Shown here piece after piece: positions 12,644 through 19,718 of a stretch of 27,384 bases of DNA. Made by a program: the position numbers and the translations under genes. The notes under the pieces were generated by a model. It worked only from the letters and a program-made list of their open reading frames with translations. It was not told the origin of the DNA and searched no databases. This DNA is from a virus. Every line of letters starts with the position of its first letter. Position 1 is the first letter of the stretch. The stretch lies in the IMG/VR virus record IMGVR_UViG_3300049856_000189, positions 1 to 27,384 of that record. One strand, written 5' to 3'.

Positions 12644-12827
12644 TGTAATCCCGCTACGAAAGCCAAAAACCGAGCGCTTCACGTTGACGTGCTCTTGCGG
12701 ATGTGACGAGATGGTGTTTTCAATAGAGCATGATTACGGGATGTATTTTCAGTGCCTATCATGCGGAAATGACACCAAGATAGATGGCGCCATCGCAGTA
12801 TTGATGGAGTGCCTAGAAAATGGGTGA
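12636..12827 (+). CDS. Small zinc-ribbon-like protein
   Basis: A 63-aa protein starting MGDVIPLRKPKTERF. It carries LTCSCGCDE and, about 20 residues later, FQCLSCGND: two Cys-knuckle-like pairs consistent with a zinc ribbon. The frame also opens earlier from a TTG at 12618, but the ATG at 12636 overlaps the adaptor stop in the usual coupled manner. It sits between two neck protein genes. Such small zinc proteins are widespread in phages without known function; a virion role is possible but unsupported. Confidence 0.6.
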   Translation: MGDVIPLRKPKTERFTLTCSCGCDEMVFSIEHDYGMYFQCLSCGNDTKIDGAIAVLMECLENG

Positions 12828-14214
12828 GCTAACCATACCAATCATTGGCGGCGACCAGGTATTGAGTAATGCCGATTACGCCGACGCGATACCCATCAAC
12901 ATGCTTGCGGTGATACGCGACATCAAGGGCAACCCAGGGTATTTAATTTCGCATGATGGGCTAACCCAAACGCACACAGGCCAGGGCGTTGACCGTGGCG
13001 CTTTGTTTAATGAGCGGTGGGGGAGGTCGTTTAGGGTATCCGGTGAAAAACTGATTGAAATTGTGGGCGGTTCGGTTGTCGTGATTGGTGATATTCCCGG
13101 AGCTGACCGTGTGCGCATGGCCTATGGGTTTAACTCAATGATGATCGTTGCTAGCGGCAGCGCGTACCGCTACGACGGCACCACATTAACGCTAATGACT
13201 GACCCAGATTTCGGCGTACCGATAGATGTTATCTGGCTTGATCAGTACTATCTATTCACAGACGGTGAAAACCTTTACCACACCGACATTGGCGACGAGA
13301 CAAGCATTAACCCGCTTAAATTCGCCACTTCTGAACTTAGCCCGGATAAAACCAAAGCTGTTGGCCGCACCCAGGACAATTTACTAATTGCTATCAACCG
13401 CTACACAACCGAGTATTTTGTTGACCAGGCCAATGAGAATTTTGCGTTCACCCGCATCAACCAAAAAGCCGTTAACTGCGGCATTGTAAGCACTGGAGGA
13501 TGGATTGAGACAGGCGGACGGGTGTACATGCTTGGTGGGGCCAAAAACGAGCCGGTGACGTTTAAGCTGCTTGGCGCTGCTCAGGCCGAGACAGCCGCCA
13601 CCGACTACATTGAGCGGATCATTAACAGCTACAGCGAGGCCGATTTATCAACAGCTTATTTGGAAGGCAGATCATGCGCCCGCGATCAGCTTGTTTACAT
13701 TCAACTGCCAAACCATACGTTACTTTATAACGTCTTTGTAGCGAATAAATTTGGGCCACAGTACGCATGGTCAGAACTACGCAGCGGAGAAGAAGCTTGG
13801 CGGGCCTGTAACGGCGTTTATGATACCAACCTTGGCAAGTGGATATTTGGGGATAAGCTTGGTACAACTATTGGAAAACTCGATGACACATTGGCCTCAC
13901 ATTATGGAGCCTCTGTGACTTCGCAATTCCAGACCGCGTTGATCCCAATGGAATCCGTCAGTGTTTCAGAGCTTGAGCTAAACGTGGTCAGCGGCTACGG
14001 CGAAGACACCGCTCTTTTTGTCAGCACCACGCAAAACGGCAGCTATCACGGCGCAGAATGGTCTAAATATATCGCTATGGCCCTAATGTACAACTACCGG
14101 TACATAGTTCGCCGCCTATGTTATGTCCGCCAGCAAATAGGCTTTAAATTCCGCGCACTGAACAAGTCAAAAATCAACGTGTCAGGCTTGAAGGTTACGC
14201 ACGATGGTGACTAA
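12820..14214 (+). CDS. Tail hub / packaged DNA stabilisation protein, P22 gp10-like
   Basis: A 464-aa protein of the P22 gp10 family (PF11134, Phage_stabilise; P22 gp10 is 472 aa). Typical are the N-terminal LSNADYADAIPINMLAV and GNPGYLISHDGLTQ, then repeated beta-strand blade-like segments (VIWLDQYYLFTDGENLYHT, NLLIAINRYTTEYF), and a C-terminal part containing RRLCYVRQQIGFKFR. It forms the hexameric hub beneath the adaptor ring and stabilises packaged DNA; tailspikes and the needle attach around it. It overlaps the upstream zinc-ribbon gene by 8 bases and the next gene by 11. Confidence 0.88.
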   Translation: MGELTIPIIGGDQVLSNADYADAIPINMLAVIRDIKGNPGYLISHDGLTQTHTGQGVDRGALFNERWGRSFRVSGEKLIEIVGGSVVVIGDIPGADRVRMAYGFNSMMIVASGSAYRYDGTTLTLMTDPDFGVPIDVIWLDQYYLFTDGENLYHTDIGDETSINPLKFATSELSPDKTKAVGRTQDNLLIAINRYTTEYFVDQANENFAFTRINQKAVNCGIVSTGGWIETGGRVYMLGGAKNEPVTFKLLGAAQAETAATDYIERIINSYSEADLSTAYLEGRSCARDQLVYIQLPNHTLLYNVFVANKFGPQYAWSELRSGEEAWRACNGVYDTNLGKWIFGDKLGTTIGKLDDTLASHYGASVTSQFQTALIPMESVSVSELELNVVSGYGEDTALFVSTTQNGSYHGAEWSKYIAMALMYNYRYIVRRLCYVRQQIGFKFRALNKSKINVSGLKVTHDGD

Positions 14215-14842
14215 GGCATCGCAGTATTACGTGAGTGATACCGACATTGCTCAGCTGATGAATATTAGCGGCCTGCCAGATCAGTTTAAGCGTCTTTTTG
14301 TGCGTGACTATTCTGCTTTAAAGCGTGATGTTGGGGGTGATAAAGATGCCATTACAACGCTTGAGGTTCGCGCAGACGAGACCGATGATCATTTAACAAT
14401 AATTGATGCGCAGATAGTCGCCATTGATTTGCGGGTTACTACAGCCGAGGGTGATATTTTAGACCTGGCACTTCGGGTAACTCAGAACGAGAGCGACATA
14501 GCCGACAACAGAGCTGATTTTGATGCGCATGTTATTGATACTACTACGCACGGTACAGCCGGTGAAATTGTTGGCACTGGTAACTATGCCAGCGGCGCAA
14601 TAGGCGGAACTGTTTTGTTGGCCGCTGCCGTTGCTGATGCGGTTGCTAGCGCAGCCAATGCGGCCCTAAATCCTAATGCCGCTGGGCTGGCGTATTTGCA
14701 AGCAGACGCTGCAACATGGGTGGCGATGCTAAACGAGCACAAAGCTCAAATTAATCTCCTAAAAACTGATTTAAATCTGGCGATTACCCAATTAAATGCG
14801 CTGCTAGCATCAGAGCGCACCGCTAAACAGTTGGCCCCATGA
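14204..14842 (+). CDS. Trimeric coiled-coil protein, candidate tail needle
   Basis: A 212-aa protein in the position of P22 gene 26 (needle, 233 aa). After an N-terminal stretch (YYVSDTDIAQLMN), residues ~40-100 are a heptad-like coiled coil (DHLTIIDAQIVAIDLRVTTA and a second block RVTQNESDIADN). Then comes a fibre-type junction (DTTTHGTAGEIVGTGNYA), an Ala-rich helix, and another helix-forming C-terminus. Needle proteins plug the hub and help penetrate the outer membrane. The coiled coil and position support this; a short fibre is the alternative, because the DTTTHG motif is common in fibres. Confidence 0.55.
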   Translation: MVTKASQYYVSDTDIAQLMNISGLPDQFKRLFVRDYSALKRDVGGDKDAITTLEVRADETDDHLTIIDAQIVAIDLRVTTAEGDILDLALRVTQNESDIADNRADFDAHVIDTTTHGTAGEIVGTGNYASGAIGGTVLLAAAVADAVASAANAALNPNAAGLAYLQADAATWVAMLNEHKAQINLLKTDLNLAITQLNALLASERTAKQLAP

Positions 14843-15399
14843 ATTTTAAAAAAATTGGTATCAGCTTTGACGTTTCAGAATTACATGAAGCACTGCTTAA
14901 AAGCGATGCCTGGGATTTATACCCGCAGCGGCGAATGGGTGCCAGTCCTCACGCAGAAATGGTTGATATTTGGGCGCGCTTTGCTGACATTTCCGATGGT
15001 GATATGTCGCGCATTGGTGGGCCACATGAGGCCGTGTGGTACCCGTGCGCTGATAAGCTAGCGAACCTAAAATCCATCTGCAATGCCGTTTTCGAGTTTG
15101 TTGGGGGTGAATATTTGGGCGGAGTATTAATCACTCGCCTTCCCCCTGGTGGTGAAATTAAACCGCACACCGATAGCGGCTGGCACGCCGCAGAGTACGA
15201 AAAAATTCATCTATCCATTGCAGCGCCAAAAGGGTCAGCCTTTTATTTTGAAGGTGAAGGCTATGAAAGTGAACCTGGGGACTGTTATTGGTTCCGAAAT
15301 GACGTGACGCACTGGGTTAAAAACGACAGTCAAGAAGAGCGAATATCAGTTATAATTTGCGTGAAAACCAATCAATTCGAGGCGCTAAAATGCAAGTAG
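14839..15399 (+). CDS. Aspartyl/asparaginyl beta-hydroxylase-like 2OG-Fe(II) oxygenase
   Basis: A 186-aa protein resembling the Asp/Asn beta-hydroxylase family (PF05118). These enzymes use Fe(II), oxygen and 2-oxoglutarate to hydroxylate side chains. Probable iron ligands are H110 and D112 in the PHTDSGWH motif and H158 in DVTHWV; R168 in EERISVII is placed to bind 2-oxoglutarate. All key residues are present, so an active enzyme is expected. The substrate is unknown. It is coupled to the needle-like gene by ATGA and to a cupin gene by a 10-base overlap, in the position of P22 gene 14. Confidence 0.82.
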   Translation: MNFKKIGISFDVSELHEALLKSDAWDLYPQRRMGASPHAEMVDIWARFADISDGDMSRIGGPHEAVWYPCADKLANLKSICNAVFEFVGGEYLGGVLITRLPPGGEIKPHTDSGWHAAEYEKIHLSIAAPKGSAFYFEGEGYESEPGDCYWFRNDVTHWVKNDSQEERISVIICVKTNQFEALKCK

Positions 15400-15743
15400 A
15401 AGAAGTTCAGTTGCCAGAGGTTGAATGGTATATCGACGATCGCATTTTTGTTAAGCAGATGCTTATGGATAAAGCTGGCATCTACGTTCCGAAGCACAAG
15501 CACGATTATGATCACTGCTCAATGCTAGCTACCGGCTCTGTCCGTGTTTGGCACGATGATCAATTAAAAGGAGATTTTAAGGCTCCAATGCCGCTAATAG
15601 TAAAAGCCGGTATTTTTCACACCTACATGAGCTTAGAGCCAAATACTCTGGTGTACTGCATTCATGCCACCAAAGACGATGAGGTAGAAATCTCAGGGCA
15701 TCAAACAGAAGTTAATCCGGCGATACTCGCCGAGGGGGTTTAG
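15390..15743 (+). CDS. Cupin-type protein coupled to the hydroxylase
   Basis: A 117-aa single-domain cupin-like protein. Motif 1 appears as PKHKHDYDHCSML, with H36, H38 and H42 as candidate metal ligands, then a glycine turn (ATGSVRVW). Motif 2 appears as VKAGIFHTY with H77. The end includes LEPNTLVYCIH. A small beta-barrel with one metal site is likely. The ATG at 15390 has GAGGCG about 7 bases upstream and overlaps the hydroxylase stop, so the two are probably made together. Enzyme or sensor function cannot be told. Confidence 0.7.
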   Translation: MQVEEVQLPEVEWYIDDRIFVKQMLMDKAGIYVPKHKHDYDHCSMLATGSVRVWHDDQLKGDFKAPMPLIVKAGIFHTYMSLEPNTLVYCIHATKDDEVEISGHQTEVNPAILAEGV

Positions 15744-15745
15744 GT

Positions 15746-16450
15746 ATGCCTTGGGGTGTAGCAGCAGCAGCGGTAGTAGGCGCAGGGGCGTCAATTTATA
15801 GTGCGAATAAGCAAAAGCAGGGCGCTAATCAAGCAACCCAGTTAAGCAGCGAGCAATATCAGCAAGGCTTAGAAACCACTGCGCCTTTTCGGCAGCTTGG
15901 CGTAAGTGCTATTCCAGGCTTGCAGGCACAAGTCAATCAGTCCGTTAGTCCGTTTAAATTCCGCGATGCGGGATCATTTCTTGGGGATTATTTCAAAGGG
16001 CCAGAATACCAAGCTCTAAACGCACAGGCACAGGATCAGATATTGCGTAATGCTGCGGCCACGGGTGGATTTAGAAGTGGTGGAACTCAGGCTAATTTGG
16101 CGGAGATTGCGCCAACTCTTGGCATCCAGGCTTTACAACGTCAGAACTCGCTAGATTTGCAGGAATACGGAACAAACCAAGCGGCTAATGCAGACCGATT
16201 CAATCAGCTTTACGGAATTACAAACCTAGGCGCTAACATATCCACTGGAAATGCAAACTCAGGGGCTAACTTCGCCTCACAGGCTGGGCAAAACGCCATC
16301 GCCGCAGGTAATGCAGCCGCCCAGGGGGCATTGGGTGTCGGGCAGTCAATCCAGGGGGGAATTGGTGACTACATGGGCCTAAAACTATACAACCAAAACA
16401 GGGTTAATGCTCAGCAGCCGATGCTGGATAACAACCAGAGGGTAGTGTAA
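15746..16450 (+). CDS. Ejection (DNA transfer) protein, gp7-like
   Basis: A 234-aa protein (P22 gp7: 229 aa) in the gene 7 position. It begins with an Ala/Gly-rich hydrophobic segment (VAAAAVVGAGASIYSANKQK), followed by Gln/Ala/Asn-rich helical sequence (DQILRNAAATGGFRSGG, LGIQALQRQNSLDLQEYG), typical of podoviral internal virion proteins. These are released with the DNA and help it cross the cell envelope. The GTTTAGGT stretch gives a weak binding site, and the stop overlaps the next start (TAATG). Support comes from size, order and composition. Confidence 0.7.
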   Translation: MPWGVAAAAVVGAGASIYSANKQKQGANQATQLSSEQYQQGLETTAPFRQLGVSAIPGLQAQVNQSVSPFKFRDAGSFLGDYFKGPEYQALNAQAQDQILRNAAATGGFRSGGTQANLAEIAPTLGIQALQRQNSLDLQEYGTNQAANADRFNQLYGITNLGANISTGNANSGANFASQAGQNAIAAGNAAAQGALGVGQSIQGGIGDYMGLKLYNQNRVNAQQPMLDNNQRVV

Positions 16451-17661
16451 TGGCCGGAATATTGGGGCAATCAATAAACGTCGCGCAGGGCTTGCAGGGC
16501 TTGGCGATGAACCGTATGAACATGGAGCAGGCGCAGAAAGAAGAGCAGCAAAAGAAACTAGCTTTTGAGGCGTTGAAGCGCTATCAGGATACATCAGCAA
16601 CCGGTGCTCCTGACATGTCGGCGCTCAATGTTGCGATTCTAAACTCACCAGAAATGGCAACCAAATTCCAGGCTAGCACCGGGCTGCAAGATCGCATAAC
16701 CAAGCAAGACGCCGCTCAGTTTGCAATCAATGCCGCCAAGGTTCTGGATAACCCAGACGAATTCAGACGCCTAGCTCAAGAGCGAATTGCACGAATTCAA
16801 GCCCGAGGCGGAAATCCAGAGCAGACCGTTGGCATGCTTCAGGCTTACGAACAAGGTAATAAAGATCAGGTTAAAAACGGCCTGACCGGTGTTGCCGCCT
16901 CGCTTGTTGCTACTGGCGACCTACAGCCCAAGGCCTATGAATTGGCTTTTGGCCCTGCGCCTGGCTCGCTTACTGAAGACCAAAAGCAAAAACTGGAACT
17001 GGAAAAACAAAAGCTTGGAATAATGCAGAACAAATCAGCTCAGGATAACAGTTATTACACGTACACCGGAACTCCCAGCGGATTAGTGCGATTAGATTCC
17101 CGAGGCGGGCCTCCTGTTTTGGTGACAGACCCACAAGGAAATAGCATTACAAAATCAGCAGATGATCCAGGTTTGCAGTCGAAATTGGCAGAGGCAAAAA
17201 CAAGCGGTAAAACTATTTCTCAAGCAAAAGCTAATCTTCCTAAAGTGGAATCTGCCAGCAAATTTGTTCTTGGTCACGTCGATTCAATTCTAAATCACCC
17301 TGGACGCCCATGGTCTACCGGGTTGCTATCACTATCCCCAACAGTTAGGGGAACTAGGCAGGCTGACTTTAGAAACCGACTAGCGCAAATTGGAGGATCG
17401 TCATTCTTAACGGCATTTGAAACATTAAAAGGTGGCGGGCAAATAACTGAAGTTGAAGGCCAAAAAGCGACAGCGGCAGTTAATAGAATGAAAGATTCCA
17501 CAAGTGATGAAGAATTCAATGCCGCTGCAAAAGATTTTAAAGATGTTGTAATGTCGGCCCAGAAAAATGCGCGTGATTTGGCCAGCGGAAAGACTCTATC
17601 AACGCAAGATCTGCCAGCACAGCCAGCATCTAGCAAGTACAAAATCGAGGTAATGCAGTAA
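16450..17661 (+). CDS. Ejection protein, gp20-like
   Basis: A 403-aa protein in the P22 gene 20 position (P22 gp20: 471 aa). It is rich in Gln, Ala and Lys: an N-terminal helix (NMEQAQKEEQQKKLAFEALK), a coiled stretch near residue 180 (LTEDQKQKLELEKQKLGIMQ), and a C-terminal domain with FETLKGGGQITEVEGQKATA, a motif that recurs in phage DNA-injection proteins. It should travel inside the capsid and enter the periplasm or membrane with the DNA. GAGGG lies about 7 bases upstream; starts and stops overlap on both sides. Confidence 0.7.
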   Translation: MAGILGQSINVAQGLQGLAMNRMNMEQAQKEEQQKKLAFEALKRYQDTSATGAPDMSALNVAILNSPEMATKFQASTGLQDRITKQDAAQFAINAAKVLDNPDEFRRLAQERIARIQARGGNPEQTVGMLQAYEQGNKDQVKNGLTGVAASLVATGDLQPKAYELAFGPAPGSLTEDQKQKLELEKQKLGIMQNKSAQDNSYYTYTGTPSGLVRLDSRGGPPVLVTDPQGNSITKSADDPGLQSKLAEAKTSGKTISQAKANLPKVESASKFVLGHVDSILNHPGRPWSTGLLSLSPTVRGTRQADFRNRLAQIGGSSFLTAFETLKGGGQITEVEGQKATAAVNRMKDSTSDEEFNAAAKDFKDVVMSAQKNARDLASGKTLSTQDLPAQPASSKYKIEVMQ

Positions 17662-19718
17662 TGCCAACCTATCAGGTCACCGATCCAAAAACCGGCTTAA
17701 AGGTAAAGCTGACCGGTGACACGCCACCAACCGACGCCGACCTTGATGAGATTTTTGCGGGGTTGGCTAAGCAGCCGACACAGGCGCAAGAAAAAACCTT
17801 TTTGCAATCGGTTAGAGATACCGCGCTTGAGGGCATGGCCGCATTTAACCGTGGCGCGCTTGATATTGCCGGTCTGCCTTCTGAGCTTATTCGCATTCCT
17901 GTTAATGCCGGACTGCAAGCAGCTGGCGTTGATTATCAAATCCACCGTGCATCGCAGGCAATCCAAGATGTAACAGGTATAGGCCAGGGCGGATATATGG
18001 AGCCAGGAACCGCTCGCGATATAGTGCGCGCCACTGGTGAGGCTATTCCTGCCTCTGTGGCTGTTGGGGCCGGATTAATTGGTGCCGCGAGTAGATTGCC
18101 CGCTTTGACCGCATCCAGCGAAGGAGTGCTGCACGGGGCGCTTAGGGCAGCTGGGCAGTCAACAGCCGCACAGAATGCTATTTATGGTGCGCTTGGCGGT
18201 GGCGGTGCGGTAGTAGGTAAAGAGGCGGGGCAAGCCATAGGCGGTGATGTTGGTGGTGCCATCGGTGAGATTGCTGGAGGTGTCGCAGCCCCAATGATTC
18301 CAAGCCTTGCATCGTCAGCTGTTAAGGGGACGGCGAGTGCTATTTTTGGAGCGCGCGACCAATCTAAAGCACGACAAATTGCTGAAGACTTCGCCACCTT
18401 CGACGCGCAGCCAACGGTTGGCTTAGTTTCTGGCCGACCAGGTTTACAAGCTACCGAAACAGTTATGGGAAGCGCACTAGGTGGAAGCCCTATCTCCAAT
18501 GCCCGCGAGTCTATCGCAACGGCAATGCAAGCAAAGCTGAAGAGAATCGCTGGGTCAATTAGCGATGTTCGCGGGGCCGAAGACGCCGGTCTTGTTGTAC
18601 AAAAGGGCATCACTGAAAAAGGCGGATTTATTGACCGGTGGAAGAATGGGCAGGCAGCCCTATGGGGCAAGGCTGATCAACTAATAGCTCCACAAGGCCC
18701 GGTGGACTTAAATAACACCCAGCAAGCATTAGACGGAATAGTTCAAGGTGGCCGGTTCGGCTCAATTCTTGACAATCCAAAGCTATCACAAATAAAACAG
18801 GCATTAGATGAAGGTGCAACGCTGCAATATGACGAAGTGCGGAAATTGCGCTCACAGCTTGGCTCTATGCTGTCTAATCCTAGCCTAGCTGCCGATATAC
18901 CACGCGGTGAAGTTAAGCGTGTCTATGGCGCATTGAGCGAAGATATTAGGTCTCTAGCGACTAACAGTGGGCCAGAGGCGGCTAAAGCTTTCAACCGTGC
19001 TAATGCTTATACCAGATCAGGGCATGAGCGAATTGATGATTACCTTGAGGGAATCGCCAAGAAGGTAAACCCTGACGAGGTATTCCAGGCCATCGCCAAA
19101 GGTGGAGAAGGTGTAAAACGCCTTAACTCAATCAAGCGCAGCCTAAAGCCTGAAGAGTGGGATGTGGTTGCATCAAATGTTGTTTCACGCCTTGGCCGCG
19201 CTTCTCCAGGGCAACAAATTGCTGAAGGCGAACAAGCGGCTGGGGATGTCTTCTCTATCAATAAGTTTGCAACGGACTGGGAAAGGTTAGGCCCAGCACG
19301 TAAAGTTCTATTCACCGGCACAGAAAATACGAACAAATACGCCAGCGATTTAAATGCTATTGCGCGGGCTGCTGGAGCTTACAAGCAGGCCGCCTCGCAA
19401 GGTGCTAATTACTCAGGAACCGCTCAGGCTGGGGCACGCTATGGAGCTGGCATTGGTCTTGGCACAGCTATTGTAACCGCAAATCCAGTTACCGCAGCGG
19501 CAGTTCTTGCGCCTATCTCGTTAAACTATGGTGCATCGTCACTTATGACGAATCCGCGCTTCGTGTCGATTATCGCCAAAGGCATTAATTCTAATTTGTC
19601 GCCTAATTCAATCGCCGCACAGCTTAGCGTTCTGGCTAAAAATTCAACGGCTGAAGACGCCGCTATAATTTACAATTACCTACAAGATTTAGAGACCCAA
19701 CAAGGGGCCGCACAATGA
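17661..19718 (+). CDS. Ejection protein, gp16-like
   Basis: A 685-aa protein in the P22 gene 16 position (P22 gp16: 609 aa). The first ~35 residues (YQVTDPKTGLKVKLTGDTPP and TDADLDEIFAGL) match a short N-terminal module common on phage ejection proteins. Gly/Ala-rich hydrophobic stretches near residues 125-220 and 590-635 are potential membrane-inserting segments; the middle is helical and charged (EVRKLRSQLGSMLSNPSLAA). P22 gp16 is needed for DNA passage through the envelope. The stop overlaps the tailspike start (ATGA). Confidence 0.72.
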   Translation: MPTYQVTDPKTGLKVKLTGDTPPTDADLDEIFAGLAKQPTQAQEKTFLQSVRDTALEGMAAFNRGALDIAGLPSELIRIPVNAGLQAAGVDYQIHRASQAIQDVTGIGQGGYMEPGTARDIVRATGEAIPASVAVGAGLIGAASRLPALTASSEGVLHGALRAAGQSTAAQNAIYGALGGGGAVVGKEAGQAIGGDVGGAIGEIAGGVAAPMIPSLASSAVKGTASAIFGARDQSKARQIAEDFATFDAQPTVGLVSGRPGLQATETVMGSALGGSPISNARESIATAMQAKLKRIAGSISDVRGAEDAGLVVQKGITEKGGFIDRWKNGQAALWGKADQLIAPQGPVDLNNTQQALDGIVQGGRFGSILDNPKLSQIKQALDEGATLQYDEVRKLRSQLGSMLSNPSLAADIPRGEVKRVYGALSEDIRSLATNSGPEAAKAFNRANAYTRSGHERIDDYLEGIAKKVNPDEVFQAIAKGGEGVKRLNSIKRSLKPEEWDVVASNVVSRLGRASPGQQIAEGEQAAGDVFSINKFATDWERLGPARKVLFTGTENTNKYASDLNAIARAAGAYKQAASQGANYSGTAQAGARYGAGIGLGTAIVTANPVTAAAVLAPISLNYGASSLMTNPRFVSIIAKGINSNLSPNSIAAQLSVLAKNSTAEDAAIIYNYLQDLETQQGAAQ

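Follow-up and report, generated by a model that had tools for sequence, protein, structure and literature searches.

The window, by which we mean the whole 27,384-nucleotide stretch of the IMG/VR virus record IMGVR_UViG_3300049856_000189 that was analysed, carries a gene slot between a needle-like gene and the first ejection gene in which a predicted oxygenase and a cupin are encoded. The slot and its flanking genes are arranged as follows.

12820..14214, + strand: P22 gp10-like head closure/stabilisation protein, the left flank of the slot (Pfam Phage_stabilise, 2.7e-45; phrog_578, 2.1e-79).
14204..14842, + strand: needle-like gene, whose stop codon marks the left boundary of the exchangeable slot (weak match to phrog_1219, E 0.013).
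14839..15399, + strand: PF05118 2-oxoglutarate/Fe(II) oxygenase, 186 aa (Pfam, alignments, AlphaFold and PDB fold matches).
15390..15743, + strand: metal-site cupin, 117 aa (alignment of 36 relatives, ligand census, AlphaFold and cupin fold matches).
15746..16450, + strand: P22 gp7-like first ejection protein, starting MPWGVAAAAVVG, the proposed substrate (PF25688, 4.8e-9; phrog_598, 4.6e-32).
15746..15757, + strand: Met-Pro-Trp-Gly codons of the gp7-like gene, in which Pro2 tracks the presence of the oxygenase.
16450..17661, + strand: second ejection protein, gp20-like, starting MAGIL (phrog_2534, 'released from the phage upon host infection', 1.7e-20).
17661..19718, + strand: third ejection protein, gp16-like, starting MPTYQ (position; phrog_36512, 4e-13, unknown function).

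Both open reading frames of the slot were found where the original prediction had placed them. The cupin ATG at 15390 gives a 10-base overlap with the oxygenase gene, and the ATGA at 14839-14842 couples the needle-like gene to the oxygenase gene. The pair had also been said to occupy the place of P22 gene 14, and a check of the P22 gene order, in which gene 14 lies between genes 26 and 7, showed the same slot. A gene is indeed present to the left of the slot, as had been predicted, but its assignment as a needle gene is weak. The gp7-like gene belongs with P22 gp7 by its PF25688 and phrog_598 matches together with the gene order hub, needle, slot, gp7. To our knowledge, no biochemical function has been established for the slot before the first ejection protein, which is occupied by gene 14 in P22 and by gene 13 in T7.

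The oxygenase scored 42 bits against the Pfam family Asp_Arg_Hydrox (PF05118), above the curated cut-off of 22.6 (E 1.1e-10). The predicted iron ligands H110, D112 and H158 and the predicted 2-oxoglutarate-binding residue R168 were all present, and none of them varies among nine diverse relatives; across an alignment of 60 sequences, H110 and D112 were invariant, and H158 and R168 were at least 90% conserved. Judged by profile and by its HxD...H triad, the protein is a member of the PF05118 2-oxoglutarate oxygenase superfamily with predicted 2-oxoglutarate turnover. A further set of invariant residues (R31, H38, D43, R47, H63, W67, W115, H116, Y120 and K122) is largely not retained in the divergent phage oxygenases of loci L003 and L004. 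The AlphaFold model was confident (pLDDT 96.9). In Foldseek, the top match was L-proline cis-4-hydroxylase (E 4e-10), followed by a nucleoside-antibiotic hydroxylase, with human AspH lower (6e-7), and the VIA-align Z scores of the nucleoside hydroxylase (16.3), proline 3-hydroxylase (15.8) and proline cis-4-hydroxylase (15.7) were tied, with AspH slightly lower (14.8). The modelled fold does not separate proline hydroxylases from AspH or the nucleoside hydroxylase. With PF05118 proteins (AspH, LpxO, L-proline cis-4-hydroxylase relatives), the phage enzyme shares the double-stranded beta-helix, the HxD...H motif and the 2-oxoglutarate-binding Arg (Z 14-16); unlike them, it is small, stand-alone and tied to the first ejection gene. 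L-proline cis-4-hydroxylase (4p7w) and proline 3-hydroxylase (1e5r), although among the best fold matches, are only ~14-16% identical to it, and they act on free proline, whereas the proposed target of the phage enzyme is the N-terminal Pro of a protein.

The original prediction named the enzyme an Asp/Asn hydroxylase, which would modify Asp or Asn side chains of the needle, hub or ejection protein. While the Pfam name of PF05118 and the presence of AspH among the fold matches fit this reading, the iron site of human AspH consists of two His with no carboxylate (PMC10947486, PMC13168262), whereas D112 of the H-x-D motif is invariant in the 60 phage relatives, and proline hydroxylases match the fold as well or better. 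Since the Asp ligand is present here and absent in AspH, and since the folds tie, we treat 'Asp/Asn beta-hydroxylase' as a family label and not as a specificity; the predicted specificity found no support, and Asp/Asn hydroxylation of a virion protein is considered quite improbable.

The LpxO lipid A hydroxylase was ruled out as an identity of the enzyme by its NCBIfam score (21.1 bits against an equivalog cut-off of 500 bits). More generally, the two genes might be a small-molecule or envelope pair that sits in the late operon by chance, serving LpxO-like lipid A or amino-acid hydroxylation or the drawdown of 2-oxoglutarate. The weak LpxO match (21 bits), the use of free amino acids or nucleosides by the enzymes that are the top fold matches, and the 2-oxoglutarate manipulation proposed for cyanophage oxygenases (PMC3037559) are consistent with this, but the LpxO score lies far under the cut-off, and both the link to Pro2 (see below) and the position right before the first ejection gene in unrelated phages would be left unexplained, making such a role improbable.

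In the cupin, the predicted metal ligands H36, H38, H42 and H77 were confirmed and are invariant in 36 relatives, in which K22, C90 and H92 are also conserved. On its own, the window cupin stayed below the curated Cupin_2 score (13.6 bits, cut-off 27.2, E 0.058); its homologues in the same slot reached up to 36.7 bits (E 3.6e-9). The PDB fold matches of its AlphaFold model (pLDDT 88.7) were cupins with the double-stranded beta-helix. A ligand census showed that H36, H38, H42 and H77 are intact in 84 of the 84 distinct cupins located within 2 kb of an oxygenase. Oxygenase-less phages carry homologous cupins in the same slot, in which H36 and H77 are mostly gone. For example, the phrog_12032 cupins of Thalassomonas phage BA3, Vibrio phage VPMS1 and Dickeya phage Amaethon have a homologous fold and the same position before the DNA ejection gene, but these phages are without the oxygenase, H36 and/or H77 are lost, and the ejection protein starts with MS and not MP. 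Proteins of this group bear the annotation 'short tail fiber' or 'tail fiber adhesin' (L115 5914-6465, L117 5896-6390 and their relatives in phrog_12032); they are related to the window cupin and have its fold, but have lost metal ligands, and they lie directly before the DNA ejection gene. The annotation 'short tail fiber' is probably misleading. Intact-site cupins with no visible oxygenase were found in L157 and L237, both of which start near a contig end, and in L019, plus a weak match in L404. L019, which has an intact cupin, an MPWS ejection protein and no oxygenase in the 7.9 kb upstream, is a true exception. Together, the ligand census and the few exceptions indicate that the metal-site cupin, the oxygenase and Pro2 of the first ejection protein co-occur.

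Cupins that stay in the slot without an oxygenase, despite the loss of two metal ligands, also fit a reading in which the proteins of the slot serve the ejection protein as assembly factors or chaperones and their enzyme folds are relics. Metal-less cupins elsewhere are described, at annotation level, as short tail fibres or structural proteins, and P22 gp14 carries the annotation virion stability/morphogenesis factor. In oxygenase-bearing phages, however, both proteins keep their catalytic residues, which a relic does not need to retain, and we regard a chaperone role of this kind as highly improbable.

Oxygenase loci were collected from viral contigs and genomes with single-protein and profile searches, seeded from the window's own protein, and the set was thinned to less than 90% identity, giving 71 and later 104 phage or prophage loci; the contig scans used closer subsets, the alignments A1 and A8 being too diverse. 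Prophages of two cultivable hosts, Variovorax boronicumulans NBRC 103145 and Undibacterium sp. TS12, were among those found. The loci are mostly metagenomic fragments in which partners and starts were called automatically and the exceptions alone were inspected. A cupin gene adjoins the oxygenase gene in 66 of the 104 loci, on its upstream or its downstream side depending on the lineage. The adjacent gene encodes a sulfotransferase-like P-loop protein of 150-175 aa (best Pfam match Sulfotransfer_3, 4e-6) in 22/104 loci and a GNAT protein in 2/104, and no partner gene was found beside the oxygenase gene in 14/104. Cupin and sulfotransferase-like genes were never found together among the 104 loci. 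On a tree of 94 oxygenases, the partner state changed at least 18 times by parsimony; the starred branches alone require four or more changes of the cupin label and three or more of the sulfotransferase label. What stays constant in the cassette is the oxygenase, its partner is exchangeable, and the gene after the cassette is nearly always the first ejection gene.

The sulfotransferase-like partner has the motif G/S-L-P-R-S-x-[ST]-x-W and takes the cupin's place, upstream of the oxygenase gene, in L028, L029, L030, L037, L046, L056, L057, L064, L101 and others, and one such protein is labelled 'hydrolase' in PHROGs. Beside the oxygenase gene of L061, L102, L009 and L072, where no cupin was found, lies a conserved protein of ~65-75 aa with a motif like 'FDMYFASxxSMQVHPGAGT'.

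A search for the oxygenase and cupin genes at this site in other phages had been suggested as a check, and they are kept as a unit there in unrelated phages, in either gene order; because of this recurrence, the pair does not fall to the objection that it is unconserved. The idea of a two-component system holds in part, since the oxygenase/cupin linkage recurs but the cupin may be swapped for a sulfotransferase-like protein or a GNAT. An obligate oxygenase-cupin unit is ruled out by the loci with these other partners or with no partner found.

The gene after the cassette begins with Met-Pro, usually MPWG, in 99 of the 102 assessable oxygenase loci, 94 of them identified by script (MP[W/F/L/A]) and five by inspection (L041, L112, L072, L035 and L092). 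The ejection proteins of L041 and L112 start with MPVGW, and the ejection genes of L072, L035 and L092 start with MPWG and carry in-frame TAG codons. L042 reads VIPFG with no clear start codon, and the divergent oxygenases of L003/L004 (DC33, PfAn1; 28-31% identical, GNAT partner) precede ejection proteins starting with MG and MV. As a control, the two genes that follow were examined and have Pro2 in 20% and 25% of cases, and upstream genes have it in 10%. The 94 proteins, in which Pro2 is the most conserved residue (94/94, with Trp3 in 84/94), were selected with a search pattern that includes Pro2, so that it is the short list of exceptions that carries the information. The remainder of these proteins falls into 15 families not joined by BLAST, and their second codon is CCA in 38, CCT in 35, CCG in 15 and CCC in 6.

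Several in-frame TAGs interrupt the ejection gene in L072, L035 and L092, and in L092 the oxygenase region as well; some stand at Gln positions of the relatives, as if TAG were read as an amino acid. Limnohabitans phage DC33 (PQ492659.1) is filed under Inoviridae, yet its 39 kb genome resembles that of a tailed phage, and its taxonomy is probably wrong.

Relatives of gp7 were also sought by profile, using one N-terminal and one internal pattern. In a tree of gp7 relatives found with a profile of the protein, 46 had both the oxygenase and Pro2, 26 had neither, and none had Pro2 without the oxygenase; the 26 start with MS, MT, MA, MG or ML. Eight rows appeared to have the oxygenase without Pro2: six of them (L072, L092, L025, L016, L012 and L013) match away from the start of the first ejection gene, L042 is ambiguous and L004 is real. 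In the search with the two patterns, Met-Pro proteins occurred solely with an oxygenase upstream, the MPWG exception L157 beginning too near the contig edge. The gp7 tree offers four well-supported independent contrasts (eight in all), with nearly every pairing concordant; the four fall short of significance in a sign test (p 0.125). Furthermore, in a context-blind DNA scan for MPWGAA starts, 32 of the 33 ejection-like matches among the 120 stretches listed have an oxygenase just upstream, the sole exception being a microvirus pilot protein (L249), and a parallel scan for MSWGAA starts gave none with an oxygenase among the matches listed. A phrog_598 survey for gp7 in 369 bacterial genomes yielded four matches and was not used.

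The microvirus pilot protein (L249 2689-3340) starts with MPWGAAAAVIGG; no oxygenase was found in the fetched stretch, and microviruses are unrelated. The C-terminus of P22 gp7 (L113 9369-10058), TPWGAAIGGGIGLLGSLF, is similar to MPWGAAVGAGIGLLG at the N-terminus of ejection proteins from Variovorax prophages, as though the hydrophobic segment sat at the opposite end.

Where the oxygenase is absent, Trp3 stays and Pro2 does not, as seen in MSWG of Amaethon, VPMS1, ZP9 and Vibrio phage 1.061.O and in MTWG of L130; T7 gp14 starts with MCWAAA. Trp3 was rejected as the oxygenase target, being less conserved than Pro2 and persisting when the oxygenase is absent.

An exchange of the slot is seen in a close relative, L139, which is 82.6% identical in nucleotides to the window across the hub and needle genes as far as 14842, where the needle gene stops. 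One gene of ~120 aa with GNAT motifs stands there in place of the oxygenase and cupin genes, and the gp7-like protein, whose body is 64% identical, starts with MALGSALAAPQ, compared to MPWGVAAAAVV in the window. The nucleotide similarity picks up again at 15996. Because the exchanged segment takes in the first ~80 codons of gp7, the new N-terminus could be a passive passenger. This bears on the main rival to modification of Pro2, namely linked inheritance, in which the cassette recombines along with the first codons of the ejection gene, Met-Pro is a mere marker, and the oxygenase has its substrate elsewhere, in a virion or host protein. Such co-recombination fits the span of the L139 exchange, which includes the gp7 start, and the number of well-supported independent contrasts, which is only four. 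However, Pro2 is kept across 15 mutually unrecognisable families and is written with all four proline codons; it stays when the partner genes between the oxygenase and gp7 genes are swapped or reordered; and it is more conserved than Trp3 and, in gp7 relatives, never found without the oxygenase. Linked inheritance is rather unlikely in our view.

No GNAT call was made for the L139 slot protein by Pfam alone; a profile of this protein and the Sortsne-type slot proteins matched the N-acetyltransferase structure 8iym (5.9e-5). In GNAT-slot phages, the ejection proteins carry Ala, Gly, Ser or Val after Met, which are residues accepted by N-terminal acetyltransferases. This correspondence suggests that the slot enzyme may be matched to the N-terminal residue of the ejection protein. 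P22 gene 14 (DUF2824) and T7 gene 13 share this genomic position, each immediately preceding the gene for the first ejection protein (P22 gp7 and T7 gp14, respectively), but they belong to other Pfam families, and no relationship in sequence was found between them and the slot proteins of the cupin or GNAT type; profile-profile comparisons of P22 gp14 and T7 gp13 as candidate GNATs, made with shallow alignments, gave nothing.

The almost complete confinement of the Met-Pro start to phages with the oxygenase suggests a dedicated chemical modification of the ejection protein tip. We tentatively propose that the first ejection protein encoded alongside the slot enzymes is modified by them at its N-terminus, with the oxygenase acting on Pro2, a reading that we hold to be a serious possibility, somewhat short of an even chance. 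The starter Met of a protein is normally cleaved before Pro, Ser, Thr, Ala, Gly, Val or Cys. Its removal from the gp7-like protein (MPWG...) would expose an N-terminal Pro, leaving it to an enzyme of proline-hydroxylase-like fold, and the oxygenase would hydroxylate this Pro before the protein is packed into the head. The candidate substrate peptide is PWGVAAAAVVGAG, with Pro1 as the predicted target. The cupin may act on the same N-terminus, either by a second oxidation or by binding the segment and handing it over. We infer the ejection protein as the substrate, Pro2 as the hydroxylated residue and this role of the cupin from comparison of the loci. The original prediction had left the target as a virion or host protein; the comparative evidence makes a virion protein, the ejection protein, the most likely target and points to Pro2 of the gp7-like protein, not to an Asp or Asn residue. 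A role in opening the outer membrane, and the presence of membrane-spanning elements, have been proposed for the first ejection protein (PMC8954989), which makes its hydrophobic N-terminus a plausible site of modification.

A wider and more doubtful proposal, which we nevertheless consider possible, is that the slot holds an exchangeable set of N-terminus-modifying enzymes, comprising the oxygenase with a metal cupin or a sulfotransferase-like protein, or else a GNAT, each matched to the N-terminal residue of the ejection protein; the oxygenase version would carry out N-terminal Pro hydroxylation. The cassette was not described in the literature searched (phage hydroxylases, cupins with ejection proteins, and phage N-terminal proline hydroxylation), a search that most subscription journals lay outside.

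If the proposal is true, modification of the ejection protein tip would explain why this gene position recurs across podoviruses. Phage biology would gain a case of N-terminal proline hydroxylation in a virion protein, and the DNA-ejection machine would undergo post-translational maturation of a new kind, with a clear prediction for hundreds of environmental phages as well as for cultivable Variovorax and Undibacterium prophages.
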